Part shown: piece by piece, positions 20,236-32,863 of the stretch
Layout of the letters: each line of letters begins with the position of its first letter
Position numbering within the stretch: position 1 is the first letter of the stretch
Assembly (NCBI RefSeq): GCF_009932475.1
Contig: NZ_BJOV01000005.1
Location: 744,001-808,000 of the forward strand
Source of the DNA: Gordonia spumicola
GTDB lineage: Bacteria; Actinomycetota; Actinomycetes; Mycobacteriales; Mycobacteriaceae
Direction: 5' to 3'
Length of the DNA: 64,000 bases
The notes under the pieces: generated by a model
What the model saw: the letters and a program-made list of their open reading frames with translations, nothing else
Told to the model about the DNA's origin: nothing
Databases searched by the model: none
Position numbers and translations under genes: made by a program

Positions 20236-20582
20236 ACACGTTCCAGCGCGTCGCCAAGGGCGTCAACACCGTCATGCGGCCACTGATGAAGGCCCCGGTC
20301 GTCGGCCCGATGCTCGGCAAGTCGATGACCACCGTCACCTACACGGGCCGTCGGAGCGGCCGGACGATCTCGCTGCCCGTCGCGTTCAAACGGCAGGGCG
20401 ACGACACGGTGATCATCGGTGTCGCCGCACCGTCACAGAAGACGTGGTGGCGGAACTTCCAGCCCGGCCCCGAGCCGATCACCGTCGAACTCGACGGCGT
20501 CGCCCGCACCGGCGCCGGTGTCGCGAAGGTCGGCGAGAAGGGCACCGCCGTCATCGTCACGCTCGACGCGCCGTCATCCTGA
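20232..20582 (+). CDS. small nitroreductase-fold protein (Ddn/DUF385 family)
   Basis: 116 residues resembling actinobacterial F420-dependent nitroreductase-fold proteins. The pattern TTVTYTGRRSGRTISLPVAF, then VIIGVAAPSQKTWWRNF and ITVELDGVARTG, follows the split-barrel fold used by Ddn-like enzymes to bind the deazaflavin F420. It lacks the full C-terminal end of longer members. The ATG overlaps the preceding stop (ATGA), and the stop overlaps the next ATG by one base. Whether it binds F420, FMN or neither is not settled by sequence. Confidence 0.75.
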   Translation: MNTFQRVAKGVNTVMRPLMKAPVVGPMLGKSMTTVTYTGRRSGRTISLPVAFKRQGDDTVIIGVAAPSQKTWWRNFQPGPEPITVELDGVARTGAGVAKVGEKGTAVIVTLDAPSS

Positions 20583-21769
20583 TGGCTCGCAGCCTGCCGC
20601 TCGACGGTGTCCGGGTCCTCGAACTCGGCAACTACATCGCCGCTCCCACCGCCGGACGGATGCTCGCCGACTTCGGAGCCGAAGTGATCAAGGTGGAGCG
20701 GGAGACCGGCGACGAACTCCGCAACTGGCGGCTGTACGACGGCGACACGTCGATGCTGTTCCGGACCATCAATCGGAACAAGAAGTCGATCGTCCTGGAC
20801 TTGCGCACCGAGTCCGGACGCGACGACGTCCGGGCCCTCGCCGCACACTGCGATGTGGTGCTCGAGAACTTCCGGCCCGGGACCATCGAGAAGTGGGGCA
20901 TCGGGCCCGAGGTGCTCAGTGCGGCGAATCCCGATCTGATCTTCGTGCGGATCTCCGCGTTCGGCCAGACCGGTCCGTACGCGGAGCGACCGGGTTTCGC
21001 GGCCGTCGCCGAGGCGTACGGCGGTTTCCGCGAACTCGTCGGCGACCCCGATCGCCCGCCGGTGCGAGTCGGTGTGTCGATCGGCGATTCGATCGCCGGT
21101 CTCTACGGCGCGTTCGGCGCGGTGATGGCGCTGTACGAGCGCCTGCGTCGCCGCGACGAGTCCGACGAGCCGCTGCCACTGGCGGAGCGGATCGTCGACG
21201 TCGCGCTCAACGAGGCGATCTTCTCGATGATGGAGTCGCTGGTCCCCGATCTCGGTGCGTACGGCGTCACCCGGGAGCGGACCGGTGGTCGGATGGAGGG
21301 CATCGCGCCGTCGAACGGCTACACCTGCGGCGACGGACTGTCGGTAGTGATCTCCGGCAACGCCGACGCGATCTTCGGCCGCTACATGCGGGCGATCGGC
21401 AGACCCGACCTCGCCGACGATCCCGACCTGTCGACCAACGACGGTCGGTGGCGTCGACGCGACGAGGTCGACGACGCGATCGGTGCCTGGACTGCGACCC
21501 TGGCCCGTGCCGAGGTGCTGGCCGTGCTCGACGAGGCCGGTGTGCCGGCGGGCCCGATCTACACCGCGGCCGACATCGTCGCCGATGAGCAGTACCGTGC
21601 CCGAAACATGGTGCAGCACTTCGACGTCGACGCCGGTGGCGACTCTCCGCGGTCGGTCGGCTTCCCCGGCATCGTGCCGGTCCTCGGCGAGAAGTCGTTG
21701 CCGATCCGCAGCGTCGGACCGGACCTCGGAGAGCACACCGAGGAGATCCGGCGACGGTTCCTCCGATGA
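20582..21769 (+). CDS. CaiB/BaiF family CoA-transferase
   Basis: A 395-residue class III CoA-transferase, related to formyl-CoA, alpha-methylacyl-CoA and carnitine-CoA enzymes. The N-terminal LPLDGVRVLELGNYIAAPTAGRMLADFGAEVIKVE is typical. The catalytic Asp169 is in SIGDSIAG, and NRNKKSIVLDL and FRPGTIEKWGI are also present. It is the last gene of the thyA operon, and an HMG-CoA-lyase-family gene lies after the propeller array, so acyl-CoA metabolism may link them. The substrate is unknown. A weak hairpin (about 21783-21817) follows the stop. Confidence 0.9.
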   Translation: MARSLPLDGVRVLELGNYIAAPTAGRMLADFGAEVIKVERETGDELRNWRLYDGDTSMLFRTINRNKKSIVLDLRTESGRDDVRALAAHCDVVLENFRPGTIEKWGIGPEVLSAANPDLIFVRISAFGQTGPYAERPGFAAVAEAYGGFRELVGDPDRPPVRVGVSIGDSIAGLYGAFGAVMALYERLRRRDESDEPLPLAERIVDVALNEAIFSMMESLVPDLGAYGVTRERTGGRMEGIAPSNGYTCGDGLSVVISGNADAIFGRYMRAIGRPDLADDPDLSTNDGRWRRRDEVDDAIGAWTATLARAEVLAVLDEAGVPAGPIYTAADIVADEQYRARNMVQHFDVDAGGDSPRSVGFPGIVPVLGEKSLPIRSVGPDLGEHTEEIRRRFLR

Positions 21770-21886: not shown

Positions 21887-21892
21887 TAAGGT
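21887..21892 (+). promoter_or_regulatory. -10 box TAAGGT ahead of the propeller array
   Basis: TAAGGT ends 7 bases before ATG 21900, which places the transcription start at that ATG. It is the only good promoter candidate in the 165-bp gap before the array. Confidence 0.5.
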
Positions 21893-21899
21893 TCGCCAC

Positions 21900-21938
21900 A
21901 TGCCCATCACTCCCGTTCCGGACAGTCGTGTCCGGTGA
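21900..21938 (+). CDS. 12-residue leader peptide upstream of the propeller array
   Basis: The frame reads MPITPVPDSRVR and then TGA. Its ATG is 7 bases after a TANNNT box, so it would be translated from a leaderless mRNA. Its TGA overlaps the GTG of the first array gene (GTGA), which itself has no ribosome site. The 3' half forms a hairpin, CCGGACA at 21918-21924 against TGTCCGG at 21929-21935, whose base includes the first G of that GTG. Translation of the peptide would open the hairpin and hand ribosomes to the array. Expression is inferred; proline content is high (3 of 12). Confidence 0.5.
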   Translation: MPITPVPDSRVR

Positions 21939-23602
21939 GTGACGCCGACAGTCCCGAGATCGCGTCCAACGGCGACCGAACGCGCGACGGCCTGAAGTCG
22001 CTCGTGCCGTTCGCGGCGATCGTCGGTCTGCTCGCCGCGTCCGCAGTGTTCGCGGCCTACAGTCTGATGTCGGCGGACACCGGAGCCGACTCGTCCTTCG
22101 CACCGCTCCGGATTCCGCTCGCCGTCGCCGTGATGACGGCCGCATCGGTCGGCTGCTTCGGGGCATGGGTCGCCTGGCGGGGTGCGACCCCGGAGTCTGG
22201 ACGATTCGTGCGGACGGCCGCGCTCTCGGCGTTGGCGGCGTTGGTCCTGGGCGCAGCGTCGTATGGGATGTTCGCCACCGACACGTTCACCGGGTTCAGT
22301 CACACGCGTGCCGTGAATGCCGTCGCCGCGGCGATCATCGCCCTCGGTGCGCTCGCAATGGCAGGCGAACAGCTCACGGATCGTCCGACGCGCGCACCGA
22401 CGTGGGTGACGGCCGTCGCCGGACTTGTTGTCCTCGCCGTCGTCGGAGCAGCAGTCGCGGTCGGGCGGCCACCGGCGTCACCGGACGGACAGACGGAGAT
22501 CAGCGTCGACATCGGCGACCTCACGCCCTGGCCGAGCGTCGACCCGCCGAAGCGGATCTCGACGTCGTACACACGGGTCGCGACCTCGGAGAAGCACCGT
22601 CGGGGAGACGACGACTACGTCACTCGCTACCAACTCGGACACGGGTATCTCACCGATCGATTCGAGATGGTCAACGCCGCGACCGGCACGGTTCGGTGGC
22701 GGATCGACACGCCCACCGACCGACCGGTGCGGGTGGTCGTCGTCGACGGTGCCGGGCTGGCCGTCGTCATCGACGCCGATCGCCCAGGAGGCCGACGAGC
22801 CACCGCGATCGACGCCGAGACGGGTGCCGTCCGATGGACGTCGGACCAGCAACTGACGACTTGGCAGACGGGAGGCGTCGCGGAGGTGCGACTCCTCGAC
22901 GAGGGAGTGCTCACCGGCGTCAGCGACGACGCACATACCCTCACCGCGTTCTCACCGAAGAACGGGCAGCCGACATGGTCGCACCGAGTCGAAGGCGACT
23001 GCGTGATCAGACATGTCGACACCCGTCCGCGACTGGCAGCAGTGGTCTCATGCCCTGGATTGCCGAACCGCATGCGTTTCCTCGACGCCGACGCCGGTCG
23101 GATGACGTCGCAACGAGACTACGACCGCGGCGACTTCTCGTCGATGAGACTGCTGGAGATCGCCGATCGATTCGACCGCACCGAACCGTCGGCGCGGACG
23201 GCCGGGGTGACCGACCTGGCGTCCGGCAGACGCACGCTCACATTCGCCCCCGACGAGAGACTCGATTCCTGCACCGCAGCGGCCGACTGCCTGATGGTGG
23301 CGCGCCGGTACCCCGACGTCGACCGTGCGTCGCGCATCGTGTCCCTGACGGGTGCGCGACCCGATGTGCGCGTCGCACAGGAGGCTCCGACGGGTCTGCC
23401 GATGTGGCTGGACGACCAGGTGGTGTGGGTCATCGAACCGGAGCAGTCGACCGCGCATCGGTGCGGCCTGACGATCGTCGACCGCCGGACGGGTCACGGG
23501 TCGTGGGTTCCCGACGTGTGCGGTGACCTGTTTGTCGTCGACGGTGCGGTGATCGTCGCCACGGACGCGGAGCTGTACCGATTCGAAGGAGCAGACCGAT
23601 GA
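21935..23602 (+). CDS. propeller array gene 1 (type A): 5-TM protein with PQQ-like beta-propeller
   Basis: 555 residues, not a named gene. Five membrane helices (about 22-45, 60-82, 93-115, 126-146, 155-177) put the C-terminus outside if the N-terminus is inside. From about residue 200 a PQQ-like propeller follows, with docking repeats such as MVNAATGTVRWRI and AIDAETGAVRWT. Cysteines are paired as C-x16-C (CVIRHV...VVSC) and C-x5-C (SCTAAADC), conserved in gene 3 of the array, plus one extra pair. No haem site, lipobox or quinone-enzyme residues are seen. GTG 21935 overlaps the leader-peptide stop, and its own stop overlaps gene 2. Closest relative in the window: gene 3. Confidence 0.85.
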   Translation: MSDADSPEIASNGDRTRDGLKSLVPFAAIVGLLAASAVFAAYSLMSADTGADSSFAPLRIPLAVAVMTAASVGCFGAWVAWRGATPESGRFVRTAALSALAALVLGAASYGMFATDTFTGFSHTRAVNAVAAAIIALGALAMAGEQLTDRPTRAPTWVTAVAGLVVLAVVGAAVAVGRPPASPDGQTEISVDIGDLTPWPSVDPPKRISTSYTRVATSEKHRRGDDDYVTRYQLGHGYLTDRFEMVNAATGTVRWRIDTPTDRPVRVVVVDGAGLAVVIDADRPGGRRATAIDAETGAVRWTSDQQLTTWQTGGVAEVRLLDEGVLTGVSDDAHTLTAFSPKNGQPTWSHRVEGDCVIRHVDTRPRLAAVVSCPGLPNRMRFLDADAGRMTSQRDYDRGDFSSMRLLEIADRFDRTEPSARTAGVTDLASGRRTLTFAPDERLDSCTAAADCLMVARRYPDVDRASRIVSLTGARPDVRVAQEAPTGLPMWLDDQVVWVIEPEQSTAHRCGLTIVDRRTGHGSWVPDVCGDLFVVDGAVIVATDAELYRFEGADR

Positions 23603-25251
23603 TGCGGGGCAGTCGACGGCTGGCCGATGCGGCACCCGGAGTGTGGGCCGCGGGCTGCGCGGCAGCAGTGTGCGGGGTGATCCTCGCACTCGCGGCGATC
23701 ATCGGCGCCGGACCGACATCCGCCGTCGACGGCACGGACACCACATTGCGCGTCGTGGCGATCGTGTCGCTGGCGGTGATCGCCGTATGCACGGGAGTCA
23801 CCTGGTGGATCGACCACGGTGCGCGCGGCGGGCATGACAATGATCGGATCGCCCTGCGACGATGCGACACCGTCGCCGTGGCTGCGCTGGCCGCAGCATG
23901 GCTCGGTGCGGGTGTGCTGACGATAGTGGCCTTCCGGATCGGTTCGCGGCGAGATCTGCTCGTCCTCGTGGACGAGAATGCGGCGACCGTGTGCGCCCTC
24001 GCCGGTGCCGGATGCGCGCTCGCGCTGCTCGGGTGCCTGAGCCGCGCGGCTCGGCGGGCGGGCGACGGCGATTCGTGTGTCGACACCCGACGACGTCGAC
24101 GGGCATTGGCGATGGGGGTGGCGGGAACGACAGCTGCGATCGTCGTGTTCGTGATGATCCCCGCGCTGTCCGACGCGTCGCGTGTCGTCCGAGGGCCGGA
24201 CACCGTCGACGCCGTCGATGTGCCCGCGATGCCTACGAGCATGGGTGCCGCCGTATTCCGGTCGTCGTTGACCAGCCGTCTCGACAGCGCGGTTCTGCCT
24301 GCGGGGGCGGGCTACGTGGTCCGCGACGGACATACCCTCACCGCGTTCGACGGCCGTGACGGCTCGGTCCGGTGGCGGTTCGACGCATCGGCATTGGGAG
24401 AGGACGTCGGAGTGCGTACTGTCGACGGCCCCGACGGGGAGGTCCTCGTGGTCGCGGGCGACCGGTTACTGGTCGGCCTCGACGCGATGACCGGGCGGCT
24501 GCTGTGGAGGTCATCGGACACGACCAAGACCACGACCGACGAGTCGACCACGTTCCGAGACCTCCGCACCGGACGCGTCGAACGGACCGTCGAGCACCAA
24601 TCGTGCCTGTCGCGCGACTGGAGCGTGAGATTCATCGTGTGGACGTCGTGTGATGTGGGCACCACGGTGACCGTCGCCGACTGGGCGACCGGATCGGAAC
24701 GGCGGGTCGACCTGCCCGCGATCGGCGCCGATGAACAGAGCGGCAGCGTTATTTTGATCGGCCACGACATGTTCGCGATCCCGTTCGCGCGGATGTCGGA
24801 CGACGAGCATCGACCGACGGGGCAGCGCCGGTACGTCCTCGTCGACGCGGTCCGCGCCGTGGTTGTCGACGACTTCACGACGTCGTCCGATCCAACGGAG
24901 ATCAATGCGGCCGGCGTGCTGGTCATGCACGGATCCGACGACACGGTGGAGTTCCGCGACACGCTGTCCAAGCGCACCATCCGTGTGGCCGACGTGCCCG
25001 GCGGTGACCGTTGGGCGGGGACCTGGATCGGAACGACGTATGCGGTCGGCTCGAGCGACGGTGAGATCCGGATCATCGACCCGGCGACTCGAACCGTCAC
25101 AGCGCGGAACGACGTCTGCACCCCCGGACAATTTCGCACGGGTGCCGTCACCGCCATCACCGTGGCGCCGGGTGCGGTCGTCGTCGAGTGCAAGGTGGAG
25201 TACATGCCGTTCGACATCGAGTTGGTCGGTCTGACCACGGAGGTGGCCTGA
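23599..25251 (+). CDS. propeller array gene 2 (type B): 5-TM protein with PQQ-like beta-propeller
   Basis: 550 residues. Helices lie at about 14-37, 49-71, 91-113, 128-147 and 168-190. Between helices 3 and 4 is the segment RIGSRRDLLVLVDENAATVC, nearly repeated in array gene 5. The propeller carries AFDGRDGSVRWRFD, GLDAMTGRLLWRSSD and GSSDGEIRIIDPATRTV. Type-B cysteines: C-x14-C (CLSRDW...TSC) and C-x23-C (CTPGQF...VEC), likely two disulfides outside the cell. ATG 23599 overlaps the stop of gene 1 by 4 nt. The C-terminus reads IELVGL before a short tail, a type-B hallmark. Confidence 0.85.
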   Translation: MMRGSRRLADAAPGVWAAGCAAAVCGVILALAAIIGAGPTSAVDGTDTTLRVVAIVSLAVIAVCTGVTWWIDHGARGGHDNDRIALRRCDTVAVAALAAAWLGAGVLTIVAFRIGSRRDLLVLVDENAATVCALAGAGCALALLGCLSRAARRAGDGDSCVDTRRRRRALAMGVAGTTAAIVVFVMIPALSDASRVVRGPDTVDAVDVPAMPTSMGAAVFRSSLTSRLDSAVLPAGAGYVVRDGHTLTAFDGRDGSVRWRFDASALGEDVGVRTVDGPDGEVLVVAGDRLLVGLDAMTGRLLWRSSDTTKTTTDESTTFRDLRTGRVERTVEHQSCLSRDWSVRFIVWTSCDVGTTVTVADWATGSERRVDLPAIGADEQSGSVILIGHDMFAIPFARMSDDEHRPTGQRRYVLVDAVRAVVVDDFTTSSDPTEINAAGVLVMHGSDDTVEFRDTLSKRTIRVADVPGGDRWAGTWIGTTYAVGSSDGEIRIIDPATRTVTARNDVCTPGQFRTGAVTAITVAPGAVVVECKVEYMPFDIELVGLTTEVA

Positions 25252-25252
25252 G

Positions 25253-26923
25253 ATGTCGACCGCGGAACTCGAGCGGGTGGCCGTCGACGAACCGGAGTCT
25301 TTCGACCTCTGGTCGATGCCGTTCCTCGGCATCGGAGCGATCGTCGGGTCGATCTACCTCGCGGCCAGGTCGCTGACGGTGTCGCCGATCACTCGCGACG
25401 GCGGATTCTCCGCGGTGCAGGGCCAGGTGGCCTGGACGATCATCGTGGCGGGGGTGATCGCGGTCGCCGCCACGGGGTCGGTCGTGGTGAGACGCGACGT
25501 CCGGGGCGTGACGCTGGCAGTGCGTGCGATGGTCGGAGTCTGCTGGATCGCGGTCTTCGCGGTCGCATGCGGGTCCGGGATGTTCCTCGGCGACCGCTAC
25601 CACGGACCGAACCATTCGGCTGCGATGAGTGCGACCTGGTTCTCGCTGGTGGGCATGCTGGTCGCCATGATGCTCCGGCGTGCGCCGAGGGATCGTTCGC
25701 GTCTCGCACCGGTGCGTGAGTCGGCGAAGTCCGCGGTTGTCGCGGTGCTGATTCCGCTGATCGTCGCCGTCGCGATCACCCAACCCTGGAAATCCGATCC
25801 GATCGACGACGCCGACACCCGTGGTGATCTTGTCGTCGAACTCGCCGATACGCATCCGTGGACGGACAGCCCGCCGCCGCGCAGGGTGACGCTCGCTCCG
25901 ACGCGGATCACGAGCGACGTCAAGCCGTCGAGCTGGTCCCGACACGACGAGCCGGTCGGCGGTGGGTTCGTCACCTCGAACCTCGAAATGGTCAACGCCG
26001 ACACCGGAACCGTGCGGTGGCGGATCGACGGAGACTCGCTCGACTACCGCTCGTCGACGTTCGTCGACAGCGTCCATTCGCTGGTCGTCATCAGCCAGCC
26101 GCATCGAACCGGCGGACCGACGACAACGGCGATCGACGCGGAGACCGGCACCGTCCGGTGGACGCAGCCAGTCGCGCTCACCACCTGGGAACACGGCTAC
26201 CAACAGGGGAAGACACTGATCGGGACGGGCGTTCTCGCGACGATCACTCCGGACGCCCGAATCATGCGGGCGTTGTCTCCCACGGACGGCACCCCGACGT
26301 GGGACTACCGGGTCGGCTCGGAGTGCGCGATCGTGCACGTCGAGTCCAGACCCATGCTGTCGGTCATGGTCGGCTGTGCCGGGCGGGGCGTCGTCGAGCA
26401 CATCCTCGACCCGGACACCGGACGACTCGTCGCCGGTCCGCTGAGCGTCGACACGCAGGATTCGGCGTCACGCGCCCTCGCGCCGGTCGGCGACAGGTTC
26501 CGTGCGACCGCCGCCACGACCGGCCGAGCCTTCAACTATGCAAGCGGCGTGATCGACACCCGGACGGGTCGGACGGTGGCCCGCCGGTCGGGGGCGGACG
26601 GTTCGGGCATGCCACTGACCTGTGATGCGACCGCCGACTGCCTCATGCGGACGACAGGGGGCCGCGGCGAACTCGTCTCACTGACCGGTGCACACCCGCC
26701 GATCGCGGTGAATGCGTCGACGGTGAACGCCGAGCGCGCGATCTGGCTCGCCGATCAGATCCTATGGGTCGACGACGTCAAGACGGGCCGGCTTGTTGTC
26801 GTCGACCGGACGTCGGGAGCGGTGACGACGACGCCGGTGCCCGCCGGCTCACTGGCGGTCGTGCCGGGAGCTGTCCTCCTCCGGGAAGGGACGACGCTGC
26901 TTCGATTCGAGGGGAAGGCATGA
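25253..26923 (+). CDS. propeller array gene 3 (type A): 5-TM protein with PQQ-like beta-propeller
   Basis: 556 residues, the second type-A member. It shares with gene 1 the repeats MVNADTGTVRWRID and AIDAETGTVRWTQ, the LTTW segment, the C-x16-C pair (CAIVHV...MVGC), C-x5-C (CDATADC) and the ending LLRFEG. The membrane part again has five hydrophobic stretches, but its sequence differs from gene 1, so the propeller is the better conserved half. It starts 1 nt after the stop of gene 2, and its stop overlaps gene 4 by 4 nt. Function unknown. Confidence 0.85.
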   Translation: MSTAELERVAVDEPESFDLWSMPFLGIGAIVGSIYLAARSLTVSPITRDGGFSAVQGQVAWTIIVAGVIAVAATGSVVVRRDVRGVTLAVRAMVGVCWIAVFAVACGSGMFLGDRYHGPNHSAAMSATWFSLVGMLVAMMLRRAPRDRSRLAPVRESAKSAVVAVLIPLIVAVAITQPWKSDPIDDADTRGDLVVELADTHPWTDSPPPRRVTLAPTRITSDVKPSSWSRHDEPVGGGFVTSNLEMVNADTGTVRWRIDGDSLDYRSSTFVDSVHSLVVISQPHRTGGPTTTAIDAETGTVRWTQPVALTTWEHGYQQGKTLIGTGVLATITPDARIMRALSPTDGTPTWDYRVGSECAIVHVESRPMLSVMVGCAGRGVVEHILDPDTGRLVAGPLSVDTQDSASRALAPVGDRFRATAATTGRAFNYASGVIDTRTGRTVARRSGADGSGMPLTCDATADCLMRTTGGRGELVSLTGAHPPIAVNASTVNAERAIWLADQILWVDDVKTGRLVVVDRTSGAVTTTPVPAGSLAVVPGAVLLREGTTLLRFEGKA

Positions 26924-28521
26924 TCGACGATGTGTCGGCGGCGAGCGCCGCGCGGGGAGTAGGTGTCGTCACCGGTGTCGCGACCATAGTCACCGGTGTG
27001 TGGGCGATCGTCGGGAGAGCGGCCGTCGAGACCGCGTCGGGCGCCGACGTCCTGGTCCTCACGATATCGGTCGCATCGATCATCGTCGCGGGTGTCGCCG
27101 CGACCGTGCTCTTGGTTCCGGGCCGCGCGGTGCGCGACTGGATGCGCGCAGGGCTCGGCGCGCTGCTCGTCGTCGGCGTGCTCGCCTACGGGTTCGCGAC
27201 GACCTCGCTGGTCGCGCGCCGACCGGGATCGACATATGTCGACGAGACGTCGTCGACGGTGTTCGCCGCCGCGACGGGTGCGTGCGCGCTCGTGACCGTG
27301 GGAGCGGCGTACGTCGCGCTCGGCAGGGACTCCCGCGGTCGCCGTGCCACACTCCGGTGGGCGATCCCCGCAGCGCTCCTTACCGCGATCATCGTGACGA
27401 CGTCGCTGACGATGGCGGTCGGGGCGTCGCGCGACCGGATCATCGACGGTCCGGTCGTCGGCGACAGCGTTGCGAGCCCGGACGACCCGACATCGATCGA
27501 CCGAGTCGCCTTCCGGATCCGCTCGGTCAAACCGCAGGTCTGGTGGTCGACGGCGGGGCTCGTGCTCGTCGACGCCGATGTCGTAACCGCCTACCACGGG
27601 GCCACCGGACGAGTCCTCTGGACGTACGAGAAGCCGGATGTCCTCGACGGCGAGGTCCGGGTGATCAACGACAGCGCCACGTCGACGGTGGTCCTCGCGG
27701 GCAGCGTGGTGTCGATGGGCTTGGACGCCGTGACCGGGCGAGTCCTGTGGCGGTCGGCACGCTCGCTGTTCGGAGGATCGGACTGGGACTCCGGAAAGCG
27801 GGTGGTCGTCGACGACGAACCGGGTGGCGCGGCGCGCGTGCGATTCGGCGATCCGCGGACCGGTCGAACGGCCTTCGATGAGACGATGTCGTGCATGCCC
27901 GCGTACGCATCGCAGGCGCACGACCTCGTCCTGTCGTCGTGTGACGATCGTCGGGCTGTTCGTGTCATCGACATGGAGACGGGACGGCAACGGGACGTCC
28001 GACTGAGCGGGACGCTCGACGACTCGTCGTGGGCGAGCGCGCTCGGCAACGGGTTCGTCGCGGTCGGGACGGGCAGGGACGCGCCCTACTCGGTGTCCGT
28101 CGTCGACACTCGGACGGCGACCGAGGTCGACCACTTCACCTCTGACCTCGTGCCGATCTCGGCGTCACCTTCGGGCATCCTGGTCATGGACCAGCCGCAG
28201 GAACGCATGCGCGGCGACGGCCGGGACGTGAGGATCAGGGATGTCCGCGCTCACCGCTCCTCGCTGATCGGACTCGGCTCACTGAGGGCACGCAGCCACG
28301 AGTGGTTCGGCGACACGCTCCTCGTGGCGAGCGGCTCCGACGGGTTCGCGGTCGTCGATCCTCACACCCGTGCCGTCACCCGGCACGCCGATGTCTGCAC
28401 CCCCGACCAGTACTCGAGCGCTCGGACGTCGGACCTCTACGCGGTTCCGGGGGCGATGCTGGTGTTCTGCTCGAACGAGGGCTACCTCCCATACACGATG
28501 GAGATCGTCGGCCTGAACTGA
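26920..28521 (+). CDS. propeller array gene 4 (type B): 5-TM protein with PQQ-like beta-propeller
   Basis: 533 residues from ATG 26920, the overlap point with gene 3 (ATGA); a longer open frame upstream only repeats gene-3 DNA in another frame. Five hydrophobic segments precede residue 175. The propeller has AYHGATGRVLWTYE, VSMGLDAVTGRVLWRSA and VVDPHTRAVTRHADVC. Type-B cysteines are present (C-x15-C, C-x23-C). The VSMGLD..TGRVLWRSA stretch and a preceding D-R-V-A-F-R motif are shared with gene 6, its nearest relative. The C-terminus is MEIVGLN. The 67-bp gap after it holds a promoter for gene 5. Confidence 0.85.
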   Translation: MIDDVSAASAARGVGVVTGVATIVTGVWAIVGRAAVETASGADVLVLTISVASIIVAGVAATVLLVPGRAVRDWMRAGLGALLVVGVLAYGFATTSLVARRPGSTYVDETSSTVFAAATGACALVTVGAAYVALGRDSRGRRATLRWAIPAALLTAIIVTTSLTMAVGASRDRIIDGPVVGDSVASPDDPTSIDRVAFRIRSVKPQVWWSTAGLVLVDADVVTAYHGATGRVLWTYEKPDVLDGEVRVINDSATSTVVLAGSVVSMGLDAVTGRVLWRSARSLFGGSDWDSGKRVVVDDEPGGAARVRFGDPRTGRTAFDETMSCMPAYASQAHDLVLSSCDDRRAVRVIDMETGRQRDVRLSGTLDDSSWASALGNGFVAVGTGRDAPYSVSVVDTRTATEVDHFTSDLVPISASPSGILVMDQPQERMRGDGRDVRIRDVRAHRSSLIGLGSLRARSHEWFGDTLLVASGSDGFAVVDPHTRAVTRHADVCTPDQYSSARTSDLYAVPGAMLVFCSNEGYLPYTMEIVGLN

Positions 28522-28574
28522 TCGGTGGTCGGTCGGTTGGATGAGCGCAATGCGGGATGTGCGCGGTTCGTCGA

Positions 28575-28580
28575 TATCGT
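28575..28580 (+). promoter_or_regulatory. internal -10 box TATCGT before array gene 5
   Basis: TATCGT is followed by 8 bases and then ATG 28589. This would give a leaderless transcript for genes 5 and 6, separate from genes 1-4. It lies in the only gap inside the array longer than 1 nt. Confidence 0.45.
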
Positions 28581-28588
28581 CGTCCACT

Positions 28589-30238
28589 ATGCACGTCACC
28601 TCCGAATCGGATGAGCGGACGCGAAACCCGCTGATGAATGCCGCGCCGAAGACGTATGCGGCCGGACTCGCTGCTGCGGTCGCGGGGACCGCGCTGAGTA
28701 TCGCCGCGATCGTCGGACGCGGCCCGACGTCTGCCATATCCGGTGTCGATCACACCCTCCTGGTGATCGCGGCCGTGTCGCTCGTCGCGATGGCGGGATC
28801 CGCCGCCGGTGTGTGGTGGACGGTGCGCGGCACCGCGGTCGACGGCGGCCGGGCCGCCGATCGACGGGCCGACACCGTCGGTGTCGCGGCGCAGTTCGCG
28901 GCATGGCTCGGAGTCGCCGCGCTCGGAATCGTCGCCGTTCAGATCGGATCGAAACGCGATGTGATCGTCCTCGTCGACGAGAACGCCGCGACCGTGTGCA
29001 CCTTCCTGGGGGCCGCCTGTGCACTGACGGTGCTCGCCTGCCTCAGTGCTGCCTCTCGGCGAACCAGGCGCGGGCGCGTGGAGACGACGGTCGGCCGAGG
29101 GCGGGTCGTCGGGACCGTCATCGCGGCGACCACGGTGATCGCGACAGCCGCAGCGACCCTCGTGGCGTCCGAGCTGTCGCACGTGGTTCACGGTCCCGAC
29201 CGGATCGAGGCCGTCGACGTCCCGCCGGTGCCGTCCGACCTGGGCGTCCCCGGTGAGCGATCACTGATCATCGAAGAGGGTCGGACGACACCGACCTCGG
29301 TCGGGCCCGGATTCATGATGGCGACCGATCGGACGGTCACCGCCTACGACGGTCTCACCGGGCGTATCAGGTGGTTCTTCGACGGCTCTGCGATCTCGAC
29401 CGGTGACATTTCGACGTCTGTCCTCGCCGAGGCGGACGGCGATGTTGTCGTCGTGTCGGGCGATCTCCTGACTGTCGGACTCGACGGGAACACCGGGCGG
29501 TTGCTGTGGCGGTCGGCCGACACCGGAGGCAGCGGTTGGTCCCCGATGGTGGAAGTGCGGAATCCGCGCACCCGTCAGCTCACCGCGACCGTTGATCTCT
29601 CGTGTTCGCCCCCGAACTCCGTGACCGTGTCGTATGTCGTGTGGATGTCGTGCCTTCGCGCGGGCGACCTCATGCTCGTCGAACGGTCGTCGGGTGTCGA
29701 ACGGTCGGTGAGTCTCCCCGACGCGTCACACGCGCGTGTGGCCGAGATCGAGGTGGTCGGCCGCGACGTACTCGCTGTCGAGTACTGGAGCGAGCCCGAT
29801 CCGAACCTGTCGTCGCCGCCGCGGCGCTTTGTCATCGTCGACGCGGTGCGAGGAGAGGTGATCGACGACTTCGAGACCACGGCCACGATCGCGTCGATCA
29901 GTGAGCACGGCGTCATGGTCCTCCACGACGCCGATCTACGGGGACTCAGCTTCCGGGACACCGCGACGAAGCGGACCGTGGTTCCGACGCAGGCCGGACT
30001 CGCTCTCGGAACCGCAGGCGCGTGGGTGGGGGAGCGCTACGCGGTCGGCGGGTCGGACGGCGAGATCCGACTTGTCGATCCTTCGACGGGGACAGTCGGG
30101 GTGCGCCATGACATCTGCTCGCGATCGGGCTACGGCGAGGGCTACGTCTCGGGCATCACCCCTGTACCGGGGGCCGTACTCGTTCAATGCCGTGTCACGA
30201 GTCCGCAGTCCGCGACGGAGACGGTGGCCGTGCGATGA
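28589..30238 (+). CDS. propeller array gene 5 (type B): 5-TM protein with PQQ-like beta-propeller
   Basis: 549 residues from ATG 28589; an ATG at 28541 would lie upstream of the best -10 box. The membrane half is close to gene 2: NAAPKTYAAGLAAAVAG in helix 1 and GSKRDVIVLVDENAATVC between helices 3 and 4. Propeller repeats: AYDGLTGRIRWFFD, TVGLDGNTGRLLWRSAD and GGSDGEIRLVDPSTG. Cysteines follow type B (C-x15-C and C-x23-C). The stop overlaps gene 6 by 4 nt. Its similarity to gene 2 along the whole length points to duplication inside the array. Confidence 0.84.
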   Translation: MHVTSESDERTRNPLMNAAPKTYAAGLAAAVAGTALSIAAIVGRGPTSAISGVDHTLLVIAAVSLVAMAGSAAGVWWTVRGTAVDGGRAADRRADTVGVAAQFAAWLGVAALGIVAVQIGSKRDVIVLVDENAATVCTFLGAACALTVLACLSAASRRTRRGRVETTVGRGRVVGTVIAATTVIATAAATLVASELSHVVHGPDRIEAVDVPPVPSDLGVPGERSLIIEEGRTTPTSVGPGFMMATDRTVTAYDGLTGRIRWFFDGSAISTGDISTSVLAEADGDVVVVSGDLLTVGLDGNTGRLLWRSADTGGSGWSPMVEVRNPRTRQLTATVDLSCSPPNSVTVSYVVWMSCLRAGDLMLVERSSGVERSVSLPDASHARVAEIEVVGRDVLAVEYWSEPDPNLSSPPRRFVIVDAVRGEVIDDFETTATIASISEHGVMVLHDADLRGLSFRDTATKRTVVPTQAGLALGTAGAWVGERYAVGGSDGEIRLVDPSTGTVGVRHDICSRSGYGEGYVSGITPVPGAVLVQCRVTSPQSATETVAVR

Positions 30239-31878
30239 CCGCTCCGGCGCAGGTTCGCCAGTTGGGTCCGCGGGCGATCGCGGCGTCGTCGGCCGCGGGG
30301 ATCGGAGTCGCGTGCTCGGTGTCCGCGGCGGCCGCGTCGATCGCGGCGATTCGGGGCAGCGACCCGGTCGCGTCGGCCGATGCCGCGGACGTGCTCCTCG
30401 TGGGCATCTGCGTGGTCGTGCTCTGTTGTGTGGCGGTGGCCGCGGCGACGGGCGGGTGGATCAGTTGGTCGACGGTTCGTGCCCGACGCATCGATCGAGC
30501 CATGTTGGGTGCGACGTTCGGCTTCCTGTACTTCTTCGCGGCAGCGGCGGCCGTCGCCGCGCTCGCCGAGGTGTCCTCACGCCAGCCGACGCTCGGTGCG
30601 CTCGATGTGCACGCATCGGCGGGATTGACGACGATCGCGGTCGTGAGCGCCATGGTCGCTCTGACATGCCTCATGGTGGTCGTCTGCACCGTCGACCACC
30701 ATGTGACCCGGGCAGGTCGACGCCGCATGTCGGCGATGACGTCGGGTGCGGCGTTGGTCACGACCGTCTGTGCGGCGGTGGCGGCGATCGCGGTGGGCGG
30801 TTCCGACGGGCGGGTGGCGGCGGGCCCGGTAGAAGCGGCGGCCGTCGCAGTCCCACCCGATCCCGTGGCGATCGACACCGTCGCCTTCCGATTCGAGACC
30901 GCCGACGATAGCGCGCAGGTGGCGGCGTCGGGTGCGGGATTTGTGGTCCTCGGTGATGAGATCACCAGCTATGACGGCATCACCGGCAGACCGAGGTGGA
31001 CGTTCGACCCGCAGTTCCGCGTGCACGACGTGATCCCCGCGGGGTCCGGCGACACCTCGACGGTGGTCATCGTCGGCTCGCCCGTGTCGATGGGGCTCGA
31101 CGGGATCACCGGGCGCGTGCTCTGGCGGTCGGCATCGATCCCGTACGGGGGTATGGGCTACGGGGCCAGCACCCTGGTCGGGGTCGATTACTTCGATCCG
31201 CGCATCAGAGTTCTCGATCACCGCACCGGCGGCACCGCGATCGATGCGAACCTCACGTGCCCGGTGGTCCTCGGTTCGGACGCGACACACCTGGTCCGCG
31301 CCGCCTGCGACGACCCGTCGCGCCTCGTCATCGCACCGCTCGACGGTGGCGATGCCCGGACCCTTCGCCTCACCGCCCGGCCACATGGCGACGTCGGAAC
31401 GATTCGGGCGCTCGGCAACAGCCTGTTCGCGGTCGTCGCGTCGGGCGAGGCGCGGACGTCCGAGATCGTGATCATCGACGCGGACGCCGGGGTCGAGATC
31501 GACAGGTTCACATCGCGGCTGCTCCCGACTGCGGCGTCGGCGTCGGGACTGATCGCCCTGGATGAAAGCGCGCTGGGGATCGTGTCGTTCCGTGACACGC
31601 GATCTCGTCGAACCATCGGCGTGCGGGCCGACGAGGACACGCAGGTCTCTGTGCAGAAGGGTGCGTGGGTGGGGGATCGGTTCGCGGTGGGTATGCGCGG
31701 GGCGATGCGGGTGATAGACCCGAGGCGTCGGACCGTGTCGCCGCCGCGACCCGTGTGCACTCGGACTCCGGACGACGAACCGACCCTGCGCATCAGACGC
31801 GGGACCGGCTCGTTCCTCGTGGAGTGCTTCACAGATGGCGACGGATACGGAGACCGAGAGCTCGTCGGCCTCCGCTGA
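30235..31878 (+). CDS. propeller array gene 6 (type B): 5-TM protein with PQQ-like beta-propeller
   Basis: 547 residues from ATG 30235 (ATGA overlap with gene 5). Five membrane segments lie before about residue 195. The propeller carries SYDGITGRPRWTFD and VSMGLDGITGRVLWRSA, close to gene 4, and ends in RELVGLR. Type-B cysteines are kept (C-x15-C, then C-x22-C). It is the most diverged at its C-terminal repeat (VCTRTPDDEP). It is the last gene of the array; the 55 bp that follow hold the promoter of the next gene and no visible terminator. Confidence 0.84.
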   Translation: MTAPAQVRQLGPRAIAASSAAGIGVACSVSAAAASIAAIRGSDPVASADAADVLLVGICVVVLCCVAVAAATGGWISWSTVRARRIDRAMLGATFGFLYFFAAAAAVAALAEVSSRQPTLGALDVHASAGLTTIAVVSAMVALTCLMVVVCTVDHHVTRAGRRRMSAMTSGAALVTTVCAAVAAIAVGGSDGRVAAGPVEAAAVAVPPDPVAIDTVAFRFETADDSAQVAASGAGFVVLGDEITSYDGITGRPRWTFDPQFRVHDVIPAGSGDTSTVVIVGSPVSMGLDGITGRVLWRSASIPYGGMGYGASTLVGVDYFDPRIRVLDHRTGGTAIDANLTCPVVLGSDATHLVRAACDDPSRLVIAPLDGGDARTLRLTARPHGDVGTIRALGNSLFAVVASGEARTSEIVIIDADAGVEIDRFTSRLLPTAASASGLIALDESALGIVSFRDTRSRRTIGVRADEDTQVSVQKGAWVGDRFAVGMRGAMRVIDPRRRTVSPPRPVCTRTPDDEPTLRIRRGTGSFLVECFTDGDGYGDRELVGLR

Positions 31879-31921: not shown

Positions 31922-31927
31922 TAGACT
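31922..31927 (+). promoter_or_regulatory. -10 box TAGACT, leaderless HMGL-family gene
   Basis: TAGACT is separated by 6 bases from ATG 31934. No ribosome site is present. Confidence 0.55.
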
Positions 31928-31933
31928 CGCGAC

Positions 31934-32863
31934 ATGACAGCCCTCCACGATGCGATCCTGCGCGATGTGACCCTGCGTGACGGCCTGCAGTTGACGGGCA
32001 AGGCCCTCGACGTGGGTACGCGCGTCGAGCTGGCTCGCACCCTGCTCGCCGCGGGTGTGCCCGAGATCGAGATCGGGTCGATGGCGCGGCCCGATCTGGT
32101 GCCGCCGATGGCGGGATCGTTGGACGTCGTCGCCGCGCTCACCCCGGAGGAACTCGACCGCTGCTGGATCTGGGTGGCGACGCCACGACACGTCGAGAAG
32201 GCGATCGCCGCGGGAGCGCGGAACGTGCAGTACTGCTTCTCGGCGTCGGACGCCCACAACAAGGCGAACATCGGCCGCGTCACCGAGGACAGCGTTGCCG
32301 CGATGCCCGCGGCGGTCGACATGGTCCGCGAGGCGGGCGGACGGATCCAGCTGTGCATCGCGACCGCGTTCACGTGCCCGTTCGACGGCCGGGTCGACCC
32401 CGACCGGGTCCGCGGGATCGTCGCCGATGCACGGACCTGCGACGCCGATGACGTCGTCCTCGCGGACACCCTCGGGCAGGCGCATCCGGCCCAGGTGTCG
32501 GACTTGTTCGCGACTGTCGACGCGGGCGATCGTCGCCTCGTGTTCCACGGGCACAACACCTGGGGGATGGGCGTGGCGAACTCGCTGGCCGCGATCAGCG
32601 CGGGCGCGACGATGGTCGACGGGGCGCTCGGCGGCCTCGGCGGGTGTCCGTTCGCGCCCGGTGCCAGCGGCAACACCGCATCCGAGGATCTCCTGTTCGC
32701 CACCCGCCCCGACTATCTGACTCCGGATGTGCTGGCCGACCTCGTCCGTGCGGGGGAGCGGCTGCTCAGCGAACTCGGCGAGACCTCGCGCTCCAAGACC
32801 GCGCAGGGGGCGCGATCAAAAGCATTGTCGTTCGAGTGGGTGATCGACCGTACCGGCCAGTAA
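31934..32863 (+). CDS. HMG-CoA lyase family protein (DRE-TIM metallolyase)
   Basis: 309 residues of a TIM-barrel metallolyase. The divalent-metal/substrate motif DVTLRDGLQ is at 11-19, EIGSMARPDLVPPM replaces the usual VSP segment, HGHNTWGMGVANSLAAI gives the metal His pair, and GGLGGCPFAPGASGN carries the catalytic Cys238 typical of 3-hydroxy-3-methylglutaryl-CoA lyases. It probably cleaves HMG-CoA or a related 3-hydroxyacyl-CoA into acetyl-CoA and a keto acid in leucine or branched-acid breakdown. No other leucine-degradation genes are adjacent, so the exact substrate is open. Confidence 0.88.
   Translation: MTALHDAILRDVTLRDGLQLTGKALDVGTRVELARTLLAAGVPEIEIGSMARPDLVPPMAGSLDVVAALTPEELDRCWIWVATPRHVEKAIAAGARNVQYCFSASDAHNKANIGRVTEDSVAAMPAAVDMVREAGGRIQLCIATAFTCPFDGRVDPDRVRGIVADARTCDADDVVLADTLGQAHPAQVSDLFATVDAGDRRLVFHGHNTWGMGVANSLAAISAGATMVDGALGGLGGCPFAPGASGNTASEDLLFATRPDYLTPDVLADLVRAGERLLSELGETSRSKTAQGARSKALSFEWVIDRTGQ

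Follow-up and report, generated by a model that had tools for sequence, protein, structure and literature searches.

A six-gene array of membrane-anchored propellers in Gordonia spumicola, a candidate operon of paired two-subunit envelope complexes

The window analyzed here is a 64,000-nucleotide (nt) stretch of the Gordonia spumicola genome (contig NZ_BJOV01000005.1, positions 744,001 to 808,000), in which positions 21935–31878 hold six consecutive intact genes, each encoding five N-terminal membrane helices followed by a beta-propeller, as an earlier note made from the sequence alone had read them. All six lie on the forward strand and belong to two subfamilies, here called A and B. The first, g1 (A; 21935–23602; GTG start, 555 residues), is followed by its partner g2 (B; 23599–25251; 550 residues), and g3 (A; 25253–26923; 556 residues) by its partner g4 (B; 26920–28521; 533 residues). 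Two further B genes have no A gene before them: g5 (28541–30238; 565 residues, with an uncertain start codon and an internal ATG that would give about 534) is a sister of g2, and g6 (30235–31878; 547 residues) is a sister of g4. The pairs g1/g2, g3/g4 and g5/g6 overlap at ATGA, and gaps of 1 and 19 nt separate g2 from g3 and g4 from g5; four of the five junctions are overlapping or 1 nt apart, just as that note had counted.

The same note took the six genes for equal paralogues, a description that has to be revised: they fall into two subfamilies, arranged A B A B B B. BLAST groups g1 with g3 (33% identity) and g2 with g4, g5 and g6 (28–42%), with weak or partial matches only between the groups. 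A maximum-likelihood tree of 35 rows (the tool warned of long branches, and its deeper forks are uncertain) joins all A proteins in one clade (support 100/99), with g1 and g3 as sisters (99/82); it also pairs g2 with g5 (100/100) and g4 with g6 (98/93), and holds the four B proteins of the window together (90/91), although B as labeled is not a single clade in this tree (two changes). A single uniform family was rejected on the BLAST split and the tree. The sister order, g2 g4 followed by g5 g6, would be expected if an A B A B block had doubled and then lost two A genes, a history that we infer from the sequences; the search for an A remnant ahead of g5 returned chance-level matches only.

The pairing of A with B is well supported. 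All nine A genes examined (g1, g3 and those at loci L028, L029, L032, L033, L035, L037 and L111) are followed directly, on the same strand, by a B gene that they overlap by 1–4 nt (ATGA in seven, TGATG in two). At a further locus (L030, genome G006), one gene continues in frame from an A membrane domain (E 1e-20) into a whole B, with both its membrane domain and its propeller (E 5e-21 and 2e-60, respectively). Distances among A proteins correlate with those among their B partners over seven pairs (r 0.53, exact permutation p 0.005) and, beyond the window, the closest relatives of both g1 and g2 are the pair in genome G030, and those of g3 and g4 the pair in G006. The A gene is broken at L033 (one stop) and L037 (a frameshift and stops), and in both the following B is open. 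The pair at L111 (L111:8363-11698; G000:C5 about 302860–306200) is a second, diverged A–B pair of G. spumicola itself, which thereby has at least eight copies, the six array genes and this pair; it was absent from the first searches and was found by the A profile and a locus scan, and the A gene at L035 was found by the locus scan only. The unit is most likely an A:B hetero-oligomer, in which the two subunits would be in physical contact. A hetero-oligomer was one of two options raised by the earlier note, and as the unit it has gained from the constant neighborhood of A and B and from the fusion. A fixed six-subunit complex is not supported, as none of the other loci read repeats the A B A B B B arrangement. 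A protein of G182 with nine predicted helices was considered as a second A–B fusion and set aside, since its first part fits the B membrane profile better than the A profile. A nine-helix relative, at L112:4163-6316, has a doubled membrane domain and one propeller.

Hydropathy places five helices ahead of the propeller in all six array proteins, and AlphaFold models of g1 and g2 show five long N-terminal helices and then strands; the helices are of low confidence (predicted local distance difference test scores mostly around 35–60). These two models are consistent with a propeller fold. Lysine and arginine residues number 64 in loops 2 and 4 together with the N-terminus, versus 16 in loops 1 and 3, a positive-inside distribution that puts the propeller outside the cytoplasm. 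The inner loops are short (8–24 residues), and there is no cytoplasmic domain. Four of the six (g1, g2, g3 and g5) exceed the curated cut-off of the pyrroloquinoline quinone (PQQ)-type profile PQQ_2 (PF13360), which, together with the fold, makes the family a member of the PQQ_2/BamB-like propeller superfamily; for g4 and g6, Pfam gave no match at E ≤ 1, and they were recognized as paralogues of g2 and g5, at 28–30% identity. Strict blade repeats number two or three per protein, fewer than one per blade. Cysteines of the propeller part come in even numbers in 34 of 35 rows, and pairs recur near its middle and end; this suggests disulfides, as expected outside the cytoplasm.

By fold, the array proteins match BamB, Rv3035 and other propellers; eukaryotic WD40 proteins stand at, or share, the top of the g2 lists, which we read as common propeller geometry. 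BamB (YfgL) is an outer membrane assembly lipoprotein without membrane helices. The array proteins differ from it in having five such helices and no lipobox-like motif, and they reach at best 30.1 bits (g1) against a cut-off of 285.2 in the corresponding equivalog model (TIGR03300), on which grounds a BamB assignment was rejected. They are not orthologues of Rv3035 either: that place is taken by L140, a lipoprotein-like protein encoded elsewhere in this genome, which matches 9p3f at 6.8e-64 and is not recovered by the array-family profiles A1, A2 and A3 at E up to 1. Rv3035 (MMAR_1667) is the propeller of a complex with FecB and AftB and has been described as a putative lipoprotein; the accessible part of that report mentions no five-helix domain of the kind seen in the array proteins (PMC12802301).

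A second pairing is found among more distant relatives, termed C, which contain two supported groups in the tree, C1 and C2. A C2 gene adjoins a C1 gene at five of five loci (L038, L113, L114, L119 and L121) in two genera, in convergent orientation at three and divergent at two, although this count is not independent, since the same loci supplied the rows of the C2 profile; no further strong C2 match was obtained in 351 genomes of the family. A and C2 were always found partnered, whereas B and C1 were not. Weak A-profile matches in G307 and G047 were not counted as A, since they fall in the C2 group of the tree. Several Gordonia genomes have C1-type propellers near SSS-type symporter genes (L034, L038, L119 and L121), which we take to be acetate permease-like, and remnants or pieces of these genes lie near the C1 propeller at L031. 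At L117:3740-11748, a C-type propeller has PE/PPE genes on one side and, on the other, a large gene containing a MinD/ParA-type ATPase domain.

Array-type genes are sporadic. A profile built from the six genes matched at least 12 of 59 Gordonia genomes at 1e-5, G. spumicola included, with one to six matches each, and among 351 genomes of the family at 1e-6 the A profile matched at least 7 and the B profile at least 32, some of the latter being C types; all counts are lower bounds, because at most 23 candidates (six-row profile) or three (A, B, C1 and C2 profiles) were scored per genome. Presence and number vary among Gordonia genomes, and the fixed one-to-one set that the earlier note had set against variable copy number was not seen. 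This variation also makes its other option, a set of related receptors, a possible reading of the whole set.

In this window the array is flanked by a coenzyme A (CoA)-transferase family III gene on the left (20444–21769, forward strand; the listed frame begins too early) and an HMGL-like lyase gene on the right (31934–32863, forward strand). An array homologue is absent from this place in all 11 other Gordonia genomes counted (L041/L104, L042/L105, L043/L107, L044/L109 and L046/L110, each pair being one genome, and L047, L101, L102, L103, L106 and L108). The lyase gene directly follows the CoA-transferase gene in six of them, and no CoA-transferase gene was found in the locus in five. Two records that also have no homologue were left out of this count: L045, a 3.8 kb contig, and L096 (G. 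oryzae, 64%). At the G045 locus, 8 of 12 window genes found are 88–97% identical and 4 are 69–77%, and at that of G024 4 of 7 are 89–94% and 3 are 68–75%, some of the low values being due to frames called too long; in both, the CoA-transferase and lyase genes are 41 and 87 nt apart, respectively (tblastn ends), with no array. Because the array is missing from the same site and its members are only 28–42% identical within A and B, it probably arrived ready-made, by presumed horizontal transfer, or underwent repeated loss, and amplification in place is less likely. Recent local amplification is unlikely, as the paralogues differ by 58–72% within A and B and the array is absent from G045, where 8 of 12 window genes found are 88–97% identical.

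Some relatives lie at tRNA genes. The L111 pair and the G030 array (L037:4271-10311; B, broken A, B, B) both lie 3' of tRNA-Arg(CCG), at distances of 0 and about 530 nt, in one syntenic place after what is presumably an sbcC-like gene; L029 and L039 are about 95 nt and 1.1 kb, respectively, from a tRNA-Ser(TGA) gene. Of the 18 loci scanned, 7 contained a tRNA gene (several kb distant from the propeller gene at L035, L040 and L129), a frequency for which no chance expectation was computed. No direct repeats at the insertion edges were noticed among 20 of 55 families listed. As to plasmid or phage cargo, g2 and g3 had no match in plasmids, g2 was unmatched in phage records and g3 in viral contigs, a search that finds close relatives only; no named relatives of g2 were found in genome contigs. 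Copies are gained, lost and broken between genomes.

The copies measured evolve faster than their neighbors in two genome pairs. Between G001 and G028, the ratio of nonsynonymous to synonymous substitution rates (dN/dS) is 0.36 for B and 0.41–0.51 for two pieces of A, compared with 0.18 for one neighbor; in the G027/G032 comparison, C1 gives 0.39 and three neighbors give 0.13–0.29. The low dS of the G001/G028 A–B pair, about 0.1 versus 0.48 in the one neighbor compared, hints at exchange of the pair.

We propose, with a probability of about 0.5, that the array is an operon of A:B hetero-oligomeric membrane complexes that serve as an accessory, diversifying two-subunit system for envelope recognition or protection. 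The array would be one operon, probably with its own promoter, and its building block one A and one B subunit, lying side by side in the cytoplasmic membrane with five helices each, and each holding a disulfide-stapled BamB-type propeller on the outer side. A would be translated first and B coupled to it through the stop/start overlap, a translational coupling predicted from the junctions that would keep their amounts equal. The window would then encode two diverged A:B pairs (g1:g2 and g3:g4) and two extra B subunits (g5 and g6), and any complex would contain at least one A and one B, whose propellers may form a bipartite binding surface. Most likely, the propellers of each pair bind partners of their own in the envelope or outside the cell, which would make the set an accessory repertoire rather than a part of core metabolism: the divergence of pairs within one operon, their gain and loss and their faster evolution together suggest partners that vary between strains, and the short inner loops and the lack of a linked enzyme make direct binding or blocking likelier than signaling. 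The ligand and the benefit are guesses.

Several observations weigh against this proposal. Linked inheritance alone could yield matching A and B distances without contact. B often occurs without A (g5, g6, G052 at L036 and two in G030 at L037), and no A remnant was seen upstream of the lone B of G052; C1 is alone at three loci read (L031, L034 and L039). Propeller-led diversification is not general, since the propellers of g1 and g3 are more alike than their membrane parts (41% versus 25%) and those of g2 and g5 show the reverse (37% versus 51%), and with dN/dS well under 1 diversifying selection is not shown. A PADLOC scan of eight proteins gave a single match at E ≤ 1 (g1, E 0.51), and PHROGs gave nothing better than E 0.097. 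Among the neighbors compared, ten of which were Pfam-scanned, no pair-specific gene recurred and no toxin was recognized; neighbor clusters present in three or more loci looked generic or attributable to shared synteny, as judged by eye.

The alternative that survives best, possible though on balance unlikely, is that the proteins are envelope-assembly scaffolds, whose propellers would each dock a lipoprotein together with a membrane-bound glycosyltransferase, on the model of Rv3035 with FecB and AftB, several versions serving several enzymes. If so, the recent FecB–AftB–Rv3035 finding would extend to a variable, duplicated set. Against it, the genome has a separate Rv3035 relative (L140, E 7e-64), the array type occurs in few genomes (by the lower bounds given), a poor fit to a constant envelope task, and no lipoprotein or glycosyltransferase was seen recurring beside the pairs, whose neighbors are only partly annotated. 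The present data do not choose between recognition or protection and envelope scaffolding.

Less probable again are signaling receptors, in which an outside ligand would shift the membrane helices and a cytoplasmic partner encoded elsewhere would read the shift. Several diverged versions with outside propellers would suit such a role, and two other loci of this genome, L138 and L147, seem on reading to carry a propeller region of the PQQ type joined to sequence resembling a Ser/Thr kinase, but the inner loops are short (8–24 residues), there is no cytoplasmic domain, and no pair-specific kinase or regulator was seen recurring among the neighbors. It is unlikely, and more so than signaling, that the genes are duplicates of little use or in decay, maintained by drift and spreading through recombination, in part at tRNA sites. 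Stops or frameshifts in the A genes of G028 and G030 and the sporadic presence would fit decay, as would a GC content at third codon positions of 0.81–0.85 in the six genes compared with a median of 0.89 in the 41 other called window genes of at least 150 residues, of which 8 likewise do not exceed 0.85. Arguing the other way are the six long frames, all intact and tightly joined, dN/dS of 0.36–0.51 where measured and cysteine pairs that persist at 25–40% identity. Quinoprotein dehydrogenases can be dismissed as very improbable: there are short matches to PQQ alcohol dehydrogenases, but these span one to a few blades, the propellers have only about 340 residues, no propeller has the adjacent cysteines (CC) of the vicinal disulfide that is a feature of PQQ-dependent dehydrogenases, nor a haem motif (CxxCH), and the best score is 13.9 bits against a curated cut-off of 480.05 (TIGR03075). 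The earlier note had likewise seen no quinone-enzyme residues, haem site or lipobox, and no lipobox-like motif occurs in the first 60 residues; none of the quinoenzyme matches is full-length, and the note's description of non-enzymatic envelope proteins holds as far as these motif, match and fold comparisons reach.

Propeller proteins of this sort are commonly annotated singly as PQQ-binding-like, without a known role. They become testable as a two-subunit system through the order of A before B, the overlapping junctions, the fusion and the parallel C1/C2 pairing. More tentatively than for the array itself, we consider it possible that Gordonia and its relatives carry an undescribed class of two-subunit membrane complexes (A:B and the distant C1:C2), every subunit having five helices and an outside propeller. 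On this reading the pairs would move as cassettes, build up into diverged arrays and later disappear, giving each strain its own surface repertoire for recognition of, or immunity to, phages, bacteriocins or contact toxins. Complexes that recognize attackers or kin would represent, for the mycolic-acid bacteria, a diversifying surface repertoire of a new kind. Loci of tandem immunity paralogues (homogeneous polyimmunity) resemble the array in their tandem diverged paralogues and variable copy number, but no toxin was recognized beside array-type genes (ten neighbors Pfam-scanned), and the polyimmunity report states that no beta-propellers had so far turned up among immunity proteins (PMC3482391). 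In a related genus, pbr1 of Nocardia farcinica is described as a species-specific PQQ-binding-like propeller gene used as a diagnostic target (PMC9198645); the likeness to array genes in annotation and restricted distribution is one of description, the sequences not having been compared. A search of literature accessible in part, without most subscription journals and bioRxiv preprints, found no paper on such membrane propellers in pairs or in tandem.

The array sits among genes of ordinary kind, as the earlier note had said; on a reading of the neighbors, these include what we take to be genes of the pnp, dapB, thyX and dapA kind. The best named relatives of the HMGL-like neighbor are from Gordonia, at 83–87% in four species and 64–87% across all eight Gordonia records. 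Ahead of g1, a 12-codon frame (21900–21938, forward strand) that overlaps its start at GTGA could be a leaderless leader peptide, to judge by sequence alone. A −10-like TANNNT element, TAAGGT (21887–21892, forward strand), can be read 7 nt upstream of the ATG of this frame; we presume its promoter type, and TANNNT elements also lie 6–7 nt upstream of the A start at L028 and L032. Another such element, TAGACT (31922–31927, forward strand), precedes the start of the HMGL-like gene by 6 nt, and in G045, where the site is empty, TACACT occupies the corresponding position.

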